Source: Maridesulfovibrio hydrothermalis AM13 = DSM 14728
GTDB taxonomy: Bacteria; Desulfobacterota; Desulfovibrionia; Desulfovibrionales; Desulfovibrionaceae
Reading direction: 5' to 3'
Assembly (NCBI RefSeq): GCF_000331025.1
Contig: NC_020055.1
Coordinates: forward strand, 857,870 to 921,869
Length of the DNA: 64,000 nucleotides
Position numbers and translations under genes: made by a program. Position 1 is the first letter of the stretch. Every line of letters starts with the position of its first letter. The notes beneath the pieces were generated by a model, which ran no database searches, was not told the DNA's origin, and saw only the letters and a list, made by a program, of their open reading frames with translations. Below, piece after piece: positions 10,574 through 61,988 of this stretch.

Positions 10574-11431
10574 TTATTTCATATATTTCAAGAACGGGTT
10601 GTCCTGTGAAAGGATAATCCTTGTGTCCTTCTTGAATCCTTTTTCATAGGCTTCAAGCGACTTCTTGAATTCATAGAACCTCGGATCTTTGCCGAAGCTG
10701 TCTGCATATATTTTTGTTGCAATCCCTTCACCTTCACCGCGCAGAATTTCTGCTTTAAGATCGGCATCCGCGAGTGTGATTGCTCTTTCTTTATCAGCCT
10801 GCGCTGTGATGCGGGCTGCAGCCTCGCTACCTTGAGAACGATACTGCTTAGCCATGCGTTCACGCTCAGCCCTCATACGTCCGTAAATAGCACGGGCGTT
10901 TTCAGGCGGAAGGTCGGTACGTTTGATGCGTACATCAAGAACTTCGATTCCGTAAGGTGAAAGCAGCTTGTTCGAAGTTTCAGTAACTTCGGTCATAATC
11001 GAGGTACGGTCACTTGAGATAATCTCAATTAATGAGTAGCGACCGAGGGCTACACGAAGTTCTGCATAGATAATATCATCCAGACGAGCCTGAGCGCGCG
11101 GGATGGAACGAACGGTACGGTAGAACTCTAAAGGATCGCTGATGCGCCATTTGGAGTAGTTATCCACAACCATGTTCTTTTTATCTTTGGTCAGAATTTC
11201 AGCCGGACGGGCATCGTATTCCAGCAGACGTGAATCAAAATAGATCACGTTCTGGACGAAGGGGAGCTTGAAATGAAGCCCCGGTCCCATAGGTCCGGAT
11301 TTAGGTTTACCAAGCTGCAATACAATTGCCTGCTCGGTCTGTTTTACAATGTATGCACTTTGAGCAATCCCCAGTACGACAATAATAATAAGTATTGCCA
11401 GGGGAGCGGAAGCTTTTTTGAGTAAACTCAT
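10574..11431 (-). CDS. hflC: FtsH protease modulator HflC
   Basis: HflC is an inner-membrane SPFH/prohibitin protein that forms a complex with HflK and restrains the FtsH protease. The 285-residue sequence has one N-terminal membrane helix (about 10-28). A band-7 domain follows, starting near AYIVKQTEQAIVLQLGK. A long charged, coiled-coil-rich region contains RMRAERERMAKQYRSQG, a typical HflC segment. The start is preceded by GGGGATAAG. It lies 11 bases downstream of hflK in the same operon, and a strong terminator follows. It is intact, while its partner hflK is frame-shifted in this sequence. Confidence 0.93.
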   Translation of the reverse strand: MSLLKKASAPLAILIIIVVLGIAQSAYIVKQTEQAIVLQLGKPKSGPMGPGLHFKLPFVQNVIYFDSRLLEYDARPAEILTKDKKNMVVDNYSKWRISDPLEFYRTVRSIPRAQARLDDIIYAELRVALGRYSLIEIISSDRTSIMTEVTETSNKLLSPYGIEVLDVRIKRTDLPPENARAIYGRMRAERERMAKQYRSQGSEAAARITAQADKERAITLADADLKAEILRGEGEGIATKIYADSFGKDPRFYEFKKSLEAYEKGFKKDTRIILSQDNPFLKYMK

Positions 11432-11442
11432 ATTCTTATCCC

Positions 11443-12527
11443 CTATTTTTTACCGGTTTGCATGGGAAAGGCTCTTTCGTCCAAAGACAGGAATGGTAAC
11501 GCATTTTTAGCCGCATCACCGGAAAGGATGACCTTTTTAACACCTGGATTGGAAAGAATATTTTCCATTGTTTCAAGATACAGACGCTTGACGGTAATGT
11601 CTTTAGCCTTCTGATACTCGTTATAGACAGCCATAAAGCGTTTTGCCTTACCTTCTGCTTCACGTACTTTCATTTCTTTATACGCTTCAGATTTTTTCAG
11701 GATAACCGCTGCTTGACCTCTTGCTTTAGGCAGGATGTCGTTACGGTAGGCTTCGGCTTCGTTGATGTAACGGCTTTTATCTTCACGGGCACTTGCAACG
11801 TCTTTAAAAGCGTCAACCACCTCGTTCGGTGGATGCACGTTCTGCAACTGCACCGCAAGCACGTTAATACCGAGTCTATACCTGTCTATAATAGACTGTA
11901 GAAGAGCTCTGGTTTCAGTCTGAATCTGCAATTTACCGGTAGTCAGAGCAAGCTCAATATTGGTCTTACCGATAATCTCACGCATGGCTGCTTCTGCTGC
12001 GTCCTGAATAGTCTTAGCCTGATTACTTACCTCAAACAGATATTCAACCGGATCTTTGATCTGGTATTGAACAATAAACTGAACATCAACGATGTTCTCG
12101 TCACCGGTAAGCATAAGGGATTCTTCAGGCACGTTCCGTGATTGCCCCTGAGGTTCCGTGATTGCCCCTGAGTAAAGGAGCGGGAAGAGCCATAGGAGCG
12201 GAAACCTACTTCCACACGTCTGATCTGTGTGACTTTCGGTCTCATAACCGATTCAATAGGAACCGGAAGATGGTAATGCGGTCCAGGTCCGGTAGTAGAT
12301 ACATACTTACCGAATCTTGTTACCACACCGACTTCATCAGGTTCTACAATGTAGACTCCGGAAAGAAACCAGAGCACAATGATGCCGAGTATGATAAACT
12401 TTCCGCCCGGCAAGCCGGTACCGCGAAATTTTCTAATCGTGGAGTTGATATCGTCCACATTCGGTGGCTTAGGGCCGCCGATTTTCCTCTGCCGTTGTTC
12501 GGATAATTTGTCCCAGTCCCAGTTCAT
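11443..12527 (-). pseudogene. hflK: hflK interrupted by a 20-bp tandem duplication
   Basis: HflK normally pairs with HflC to modulate FtsH. Here the gene is split into two overlapping frames. The first part starts at 12527 (MNWDWDKL...) and has the proline/glycine-rich N-terminus, a membrane helix around residues 45-63 and the start of the band-7 domain. It then runs out of frame at a perfect 20-bp tandem repeat (12133-12172). The rest of the band-7 domain, starting VPEESLMLTGDEN, is in another frame down to 11443. Removing one repeat copy joins SFTQGQSRN directly to VPEESLML and gives a normal 354-residue HflK. A GTG at 12132 could start the second part alone, but without membrane anchor. 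It may be a real null or switchable allele, or an assembly error. Confidence 0.9.
12133..12172. repeat. Perfect 20-bp tandem duplication inside hflK
   Basis: Two identical 20-base units lie head to tail at 12133-12152 and 12153-12172, with no mismatch. Because 20 is not a multiple of three, the extra copy shifts the hflK reading frame. Confidence 0.97.
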
Positions 12528-28656: not shown

Positions 28657-29127
28657 ATGCAGTTTGTCACCTCTGACGATTACGTTGACTTCACAGGCCC
28701 CAATGCGGGAAAATATCTTTTTAATTTTGCTAAATTTCAAACCCTGCGTGACGGCTTTACCGTGACATGGCATTGGCCTGCTTTCCTGTTCGGATTCTGG
28801 TGGTTTCTGTATCGCAAGATGTATTTCTGGGCCTTTGTGACTTTTCTGGTCGGATTTCTGCCCTTTGGTAATTTTATTGCCCAGATCGGATACGGGCTTA
28901 GTGCATATTACTTTTACTACCGCGACAGTACCTCCAAGATCGGAGCCATCAAAGCCACGGTCCCGGAAGGCAGAGCAAGGGATGTCATACGCGAGACCGG
29001 AGGAGTGCATTGGTGGGTTAAAATTGCTGGGGCAGTATGCTTTTTCCTGCAACCTCTGTGGATTTTTGTAATGTCTTTGCTTTTTGGCAGTGCTTTCATT
29101 TTTTCTTTTCAACAAGTTATGCTATAA
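28657..29127 (+). CDS. DUF2628-type small membrane protein
   Basis: This 156-residue inner-membrane protein has about three membrane helices (roughly residues 43-52 with 55-73, 76-90 and 123-150). The aromatic-rich segment WPAFLFGFWWFLYRKMY is typical of DUF2628. The function of the family is unknown. A strong CCGGAGAAA ribosome-binding site precedes ATG 28657. The caspase-like gene follows after 45 bases on the same strand, so the two may be co-transcribed. Confidence 0.75.
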   Translation: MQFVTSDDYVDFTGPNAGKYLFNFAKFQTLRDGFTVTWHWPAFLFGFWWFLYRKMYFWAFVTFLVGFLPFGNFIAQIGYGLSAYYFYYRDSTSKIGAIKATVPEGRARDVIRETGGVHWWVKIAGAVCFFLQPLWIFVMSLLFGSAFIFSFQQVML

Positions 29128-29172
29128 AGGAAGTCTCAACTCAAATAAGTCTATTTCTGAAGGGGGTCGTAA

Positions 29173-30069
29173 ATGAAAACGGGATTATCTTTTAGGTCGG
29201 CAGGAATATTCTTTCTGGTTATTTTCTCTGCCCTGCTGCTCGCAGCAAACGATTCTTTGGCACAGTCCCGGCTTGCCTTGCTGATTGGTAACTCCGCTTA
29301 CAAAAACGGTCCGCTTCGCAATCCTGTCAACGATGTTTCAGCCATGCACAAGTCGCTTAAACAGTCCGGCTTTGATGTTATGGTTGTCAAGAACGCCGAC
29401 CGCGCCACAATCGGCAAAGCCATTGATGAATTCGGGCGTAAGCTGAAAGGATATGACGTGGGCCTTTTCTATTTTTCCGGCCACGGGTTGCAGGTTAATG
29501 GTCGCAACTATCTGGTCCCGCTGCATATGAAAATTCAGGGACAGGCTGATGTCCAGTATGAAGCCATTGATGCAGGCAAGGTTCTCGCCAAGATGGAGGA
29601 TGCCGGCAACAGAATGAACATCGTCATTCTGGATGCCTGCCGTAACAATCCATTCAAGCGCAGTTTCCGCTCTGCATCTAACGGCCTTGCCCAGATGGAT
29701 GCGCCTACAGGATCATTTATCGCTTTCGCTACCGCCCCCGGTGATGTGGCTCTTGACGGGCGCGGAAGCAACAGCCCCTACGTTGCCAACATGCTCAGCA
29801 ATATGAAAAAGAAAAATCTGACTATCGAGCAATTTTTTAAAAAGGTCCGCAGAGGAGTCATGAAAGATACCAACAAAAAGCAGGTTCCGTGGGAATCCTC
29901 TTCACTGGTAGGTGATTTCTATTTTGGCGGAAAAGGGGCCTCTTCCGGATCATCCGCAAGTCAGCAAACCAGCAGCCAGCAACAGGCTGCACCGGCCGCC
30001 GCCCCCGCGCCAAGGCCGAAGCCTCGCAAATCCAAGAGCGGGCAGGCTATGGACAGTTTGCTGAATTAA
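29173..30069 (+). CDS. Secreted caspase-like (C14) peptidase, orthocaspase
   Basis: This 298-residue protein has a signal peptide (cleavage after about residue 30, DSLA-QS) and a caspase fold of peptidase family C14. The catalytic pair is visible: His104 in YFSGHG and Cys156 in LDACRNNPF. The start of the domain, RLALLIGNSAYKNGPLRNP, is also typical. The last 45 residues are rich in Ser, Gln, Ala and Pro and end in a basic tail, probably disordered. Export to the periplasm is likely. Bacterial homologues often cleave after Arg or Lys; the physiological target is unknown. It lies 45 bases after the DUF2628 gene, and a strong terminator follows. Confidence 0.9.
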   Translation: MKTGLSFRSAGIFFLVIFSALLLAANDSLAQSRLALLIGNSAYKNGPLRNPVNDVSAMHKSLKQSGFDVMVVKNADRATIGKAIDEFGRKLKGYDVGLFYFSGHGLQVNGRNYLVPLHMKIQGQADVQYEAIDAGKVLAKMEDAGNRMNIVILDACRNNPFKRSFRSASNGLAQMDAPTGSFIAFATAPGDVALDGRGSNSPYVANMLSNMKKKNLTIEQFFKKVRRGVMKDTNKKQVPWESSSLVGDFYFGGKGASSGSSASQQTSSQQQAAPAAAPAPRPKPRKSKSGQAMDSLLN

Positions 30070-61542: not shown

Positions 61543-61988
61543 TAAGAATTTAGTTCTGGTTACAATTAACCTAAAACACAGTTACCATGAAAAATTTAAA
61601 GTAGCAAAGTACTAATGCAGCACAGCAATACACAGCAATAGGCCCTCACAATACAACTCTTGCAGTTATTCTACAGCTGCGCCAGACCATTCATCTCAGA
61701 CATAAAACCACAAAGCAAATATAGACTCTGCTACAAAAGCAACAATACTTTCGTAAAACGCATAGGACAAATAAAGCAAACTAAATAAAACAATCCAAAT
61801 ATCTATTTTTAAAACAGGTAAGACGACATGCAAGAGCTTCACAAATTATATACAGTGCACACACTAATAACAGCAACTAACACACTACAAGTCTAAATAA
61901 CTCTACATTTCGTCAGTTACTGCTTAATAGATACTCCAAAATATTTTAATTCTCCAATGGAAAATATATTATAACGAATATTGCCAAG
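61543..61988. other. AT-rich, repeat-containing spacer without a gene
   Basis: This spacer between the histidine kinase and the S24 regulator is rich in A and C on the plus strand, unlike its neighbours. It holds a tandem CACAGCAATA x2 (61621-61640). ACAATACAACTC at 61648-61659 repeats exactly 150 bases after a first copy at 61498-61509. No reading frame with a ribosome-binding site was found. Confidence 0.55.

Follow-up and report, generated by a model that had tools for sequence, protein, structure and literature searches.

The hflK gene of Maridesulfovibrio hydrothermalis AM13T, a sulfate reducer from the deep sea, is split over two reading frames by a perfect head-to-tail duplication of 20 bp. 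We consider it somewhat more probable than any other reading (probability about 0.55) that a recent, strain-private and spontaneous tandem duplication inactivates hflK in the AM13T culture that was sequenced. The duplication lies in a 64-kb stretch of the chromosome record, which was analysed as a whole and is referred to below as the window (C2:857870-921869). The genome comprises 3,708,362 bases, with a small contig of 5,328 bp (C1) and the chromosome record of 3,703,034 bp (C2); positions given without a prefix are those of the window. The features concerned, from hflC upstream, are as follows:

10574-11431, minus strand: hflC, intact, 285 codons, directly downstream of hflK (TIGR01932, 258.3 bits)
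11443-12132, minus strand: 3' part of hflK in the other frame, 229 codons; the GTG at 12132 is its first ATG, GTG or TTG
12027-12527, minus strand: 5' part of hflK with its own ATG (12527), 166 codons, of which the last 41 or so are out of frame
12133-12152, minus strand: copy 1 of the 20-bp tandem duplication, a perfect repeat with a score of 80 in Tandem Repeats Finder (TRF)
12153-12172, minus strand: copy 2, identical to copy 1 and abutting it (from TRF and from the alignment with 16 genus relatives, which have a single copy there)

A 20-bp tandem duplication splits hflK

The unit CTCAGGGGCAATCACGGAAC occurs twice, head to tail, at 12172-12133 on the minus strand of hflK with zero mismatches, exactly as the initial annotation had described. 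TRF recovered the same pair when run over the 64-kb window (12133-12172, period 20, 2.0 copies, 100% matches), and its score of 80 is the highest of the 16 rows reported, the next being 53. The repeat measures exactly 40 bp, the flanking bases on both sides stop matching, and microhomology at the breakpoints is 0 bp. Among 100 Markov-1 control sequences of 64 kb (period 10-59), the longest perfect tandem pair was 10 bp, found in six; the other 94 held no perfect pair, and none exceeded 10 bp. The 20-mer has no further occurrence in the genome at up to three mismatches. One other perfect pair with a period of at least 10 is present in the window, the 10-bp pair CACAGCAATA at 61621-61640.

Because 20 is not a multiple of three, the frame of hflK is shifted, as had also been proposed. 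Frame 0 departs from HflK sequence after SFTQGQSRN and reaches a stop at 12029, and the remainder of HflK is found in the -1 (+2) frame, which is open from 12252 to 11443. The HflK model TIGR01933 matches the 5' frame over profile positions 1-47 (33.1 bits) and the 3' frame over positions 49-261 (252.7 bits; cut-off 159.4). The family model is therefore covered over its length but split across two frames, and AM13 has no single open frame for the whole of HflK. Apart from the duplication, no further stop or frameshift was found in the two pieces.

The duplication is private to the assembly of AM13

A DNA search matched hflK in all 17 genus genomes, AM13 included. In the alignment, each of the 16 relatives has one copy of the unit, opposite a 20-base gap, and its hflK frame stays open for 354-359 residues; the 16 genes all differ from one another within the 1,060 bases compared. 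Two MAG loci (L019 and L020) also have one copy; their hflK is identical to that of L007 and L014, and they were excluded from the count of relatives. The duplication is private to the AM13 assembly, which represents the one sequenced strain of the species. This comparison, which the initial annotation had proposed, supports its view that the duplication breaks the gene: the one-copy form with an intact frame is present in 16 of 16 relatives and the two-copy form in none.

The window was also queried with the ORFs of 40-kb syntenic stretches from five relatives, of which 22, 26, 4, 27 and 19, respectively, gave a near-full-length match at 50% identity or more. Among the conserved genes of the window, hflK alone was clearly divided between frames, and this held for the queries from all five relatives. 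Two other apparent splits were set aside as spurious or too diverged, namely that of a G010 ORF antisense to hflK and that of a 160-codon G013 ORF against 28984-29441 (54% and 42% identity).

Across the family, an HflK profile search was positive for 254 of the 288 genomes, AM13 being matched in part, over model positions 119-354; no internal stops were seen among the matches listed, although other broken hflK genes may occur in the family. HflK was matched in 43 of 44 genera, the apparent exception being genus g25 (G168-G182). All 11 genomes of g25 tested have Band_7 proteins, and the missing match may in part reflect a limitation of the initial search step.

hflC, ftsH and the expected effect on the cell

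The broken hflK is followed in the same operon by an intact hflC, whose frame is open in all 16 relatives. One ftsH scores above the cut-off of its family (C2:2580815-2582551). A genome search with Band_7 gave four matches, comprising hflC, the two hflK pieces and one other SPFH protein at C2:1039616-1040125, and thus found no second HflK elsewhere in the genome. Promoter-like and terminator-like sites around hflK numbered 4 and 4, against 2.4 and 1.5 expected, and were given no weight in the interpretation.

HflK/C of E. coli is a large assembly with FtsH. According to a 2025 study, it enhances the degradation of certain membrane substrates (PMC12048511), and a second report states that E. 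coli requires HflKC at high aeration and that loss of hflKC impairs growth at high oxygen (PMC12005517). For B. burgdorferi without HflK/C, no phenotype was reportedly detected (PMC4850261).

If the AM13 duplication is real, an error of replication or repair would have created it, and the cell would be predicted to make a product of 166 residues that comprises the membrane anchor and the beginning of the SPFH region, and no normal HflK. The HflK/C assembly around FtsH would then be lost or altered. Such a loss would have been tolerated, and was perhaps acquired in laboratory culture; a strict anaerobe in culture may tolerate it, because high aeration is a condition that it would not encounter and because no phenotype was detected in B. 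burgdorferi. One copy could also be lost again, which would allow reversion, as for any perfect tandem pair. The event is of an ordinary kind, and revertibility of this sort is not evidence of a switch.

A real duplication would mean that the reference strain for pressure transcriptomics is without a normal FtsH modulator, which is relevant to studies of membrane adaptation; if it is not real, an error in the reference sequence masks an intact hflK. A literature search found no paper naming the species together with hflK, and the term 'hflK' is absent from the main texts of two transcriptome papers that use AM13.

Age of the duplication

Between AM13 and G016 (L003), dN/dS is 0.086 for the pre-break piece and 0.054 for the post-break piece, and hflK has therefore been constrained for most of its recent history. 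Amino-acid changes were then assigned to the AM13 and G016 branches (given as AM13:G016) with G013, G014, G010 and G002, in this order, as outgroups. The post-break piece gave 11:4, 13:3, 11:4 and 12:6, and the sums over neighbouring genes were 127:154 (9 genes), 61:75 (5), 113:158 (9) and 133:197 (12). The excess over the neighbours has Fisher p values of 0.06, 0.007, 0.03 and 0.05, from four tests that share changes and are not independent. No excess is seen in the pre-break piece (4:4, 5:3, 3:4 and 4:4) or in hflC (10:6, 7:10, 7:10 and 6:10).

A branch codon model gave omega values on the AM13 branch of 0.294 against 0.060 for the pre-break piece (p 0.034) and 0.098 against 0.060 for the post-break piece (p 0.19). 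The rate tests thus disagree on the place, with the counts putting an excess after the break and the codon model a raised omega before it. For the whole of hflK, omega on the AM13 branch was 0.136 against 0.061 with six taxa (p 0.013) and 0.138 against 0.060 with 17 taxa, where five of the 17 tips were tested. A three-parameter model applied to all 17 tips gave 0.134 against 0.062 for AM13 (p 0.013), the highest of the 17; two other tips reached p<0.02, both with a lowered omega. hflC is not raised on the AM13 branch (0.069 against 0.060, p 0.71). Eleven neighbouring genes, hflC included, were tried in the same way, of which two had too few relatives and nine were tested. The p value of 0.013 for hflK is lower than that of any of these nine, and two of them have a foreground/background ratio (2.30 and 3.46, one with p 0.022) above the 2.23 of hflK. 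With two of nine neighbours exceeding the ratio and the tests mixed, relaxed selection was rejected as a clock and decay specific to hflK is not claimed. The lack of stops bounds the time since the break at no more than 34% of the terminal branch, which is a weak bound. Decay is not shown, and the duplication is either recent or not real.

Mutation or assembly error

A false duplication is a serious alternative, although we give it less than an even chance. Here two contig ends sharing 20 bases would have been joined end to end, or a gap closure mis-edited, and the organism itself would carry a single copy, with hflK intact. Such an error would suit a duplication that is perfect, blunt and private to the AM13 assembly, in a gene without other damage. 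The genome was assembled with Newbler from 454 reads at about 19x coverage with 1,038 gap-closing PCRs, and the quality of the assembly was checked with 36-bp Illumina reads at about 1,000x (PMC3587943). A 40-bp repeat plus flanking sequence is longer than a 36-bp read, and an extra copy could therefore have escaped a check made base by base; if looked for, however, missing 36-bp reads from copy to copy would betray a false duplication. The 454 reads, at several hundred bases, are long enough to cross 40 bp with ease, provided that the site was not a gap. The post-break excess of amino-acid changes, if real, would likewise be unexpected for an artefact.

The location of the known join also speaks against this alternative. 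The published chromosome amounts to 3,702,934 bp, divided between contigs of 284,269 and 3,418,665 bp (PMC3587943), and a run of 100 N begins in C2 right after the first 284,269 bases. This reported join (C2:284270-284369) is far from the window, in which no N is present.

A survey of 463,869 bp of the AM13 genome, made up of the window and 20 further stretches and including 7,500 N, covered 12.5% of the genome and found no other perfect tandem pair of at least 12 bp without overrun, although shorter pairs and a 15-bp pair that overruns by 9 bases are present. In the part sampled, duplications of the hflK type therefore do not recur as an error of the assembly. In samples of 399,869 bp from each of G015 and G013, the non-composite perfect pairs reached periods of at most 12 and 13 bp, respectively, and the G013 sample also contained a blunt 12-bp pair.

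An indication that the assembly could contain such an error comes from elsewhere in the genome. C1 contains a perfect loxP site, and the same 45 bases occur at C1:205-249 and C2:153-197 with unrelated flanks. This sequence agrees with the linker of 454 Titanium mate-pair libraries, and library linker sequence has very probably survived in the finished assembly, where it was retained twice. Its retention counts against a real mutation in hflK and makes an assembly error plausible. Both probable linkers are, however, sited unlike hflK, one in the small contig and the other close to where the chromosome record begins.

C1 itself was published as a circular plasmid (PMC3587943). Plasmid records matching it numbered 668, and the 20 listed all match only within 208-253, at the loxP site. 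An ORF of the contig that starts at the loxP sequence encodes the C-terminal part of a Baseplate_J protein, matching positions 112-254 of the 255 in the model. The contig further contains a large ORF rich in glycine and a Tail_P2_I gene; no replication gene was found among the four ORFs scanned. A second Baseplate_J is located on the chromosome at C2:233085-233513. Bases 260-4000 of C1 have no close chromosomal copy, the one match being 105 bp at 70%. The 5,328-bp 'plasmid' may be a prophage tail fragment that was circularised by the assembly.

The preferred reading, a spontaneous duplication in the sequenced culture, draws on the comparison with the genus, in which 16 of 16 relatives have one copy and an open frame, and on an hflK that is otherwise undamaged. 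Slipped-strand replication usually leaves microhomology, and its absence here counts against the preferred reading.

Switching and frameshifting

The initial annotation had suggested that gain and loss of a unit by strand slippage would switch HflK off and on. A reversible switch that is selected as such (phase variation) is very improbable, even though the pair is perfect and its unit is not a multiple of three, so that loss of a copy could in principle restore the frame. The repeat has two copies only, and the breakpoints, with 0 bp of microhomology, offer no repeat from which a lost copy would often be regained. Folding of the single strand is unremarkable, as 184 of 200 shuffled sequences fold at least as well; a DNA hairpin promoting slippage was rejected accordingly, the fold being weaker than the shuffle mean (z 1.25). 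Copy number does not vary among the relatives, with exactly one copy in 16 of 16 and two or more in none. The proposed slipped-strand switch is thus unsupported.

Similarly little weight is given to the possibility that full-length HflK, with about seven extra residues, is still made by ribosomes that shift frame by -1 within the overlap at 12252-12029. The two hflK frames do share more than 200 nt, and -1 is the shift required, but this stretch has no XXXYYYZ heptamer in phase, and its longest homopolymers have four bases (GGGG, twice). The second frame has no ATG, GTG or TTG upstream of the GTG at 12132 within the overlap. With no slippery heptamer in phase, programmed -1 frameshifting was rejected. 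Least credible of all is that the pair is a real reversible allele through which a piezophilic sulfate reducer loses HflK in culture and regains it in the deep sea, tuning FtsH-dependent turnover of membrane proteins.

Comparison with known systems

Contingency loci share with the hflK pair a tandem repeat in coding sequence, with a unit length that three does not divide. They are long arrays of short units, whereas hflK has two copies of a 20-mer and shows no variation in copy number among 16 relatives. Duplications left by contig joins resemble the hflK pair in being blunt, perfect, short and confined to one assembly, and the probable linker was kept twice in this assembly; against this, no other blunt pair of at least 12 bp was found in the 463,869 bp sampled. 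A precedent for this type of mutation comes from lrp of Xenorhabdus nematophila, where tandem duplications of 26-116 bp are reported that the authors did not regard as phase variation (PMC6786866). They were found in cultures, whereas the 20-bp hflK duplication is known from one assembly only. None of eight lrp mutants tested reverted genetically, and the duplication mutants were not necessarily among the eight (PMC6786866). What lrp and hflK have in common is a short head-to-tail duplication that knocks a gene out in one lineage (PMC6786866).
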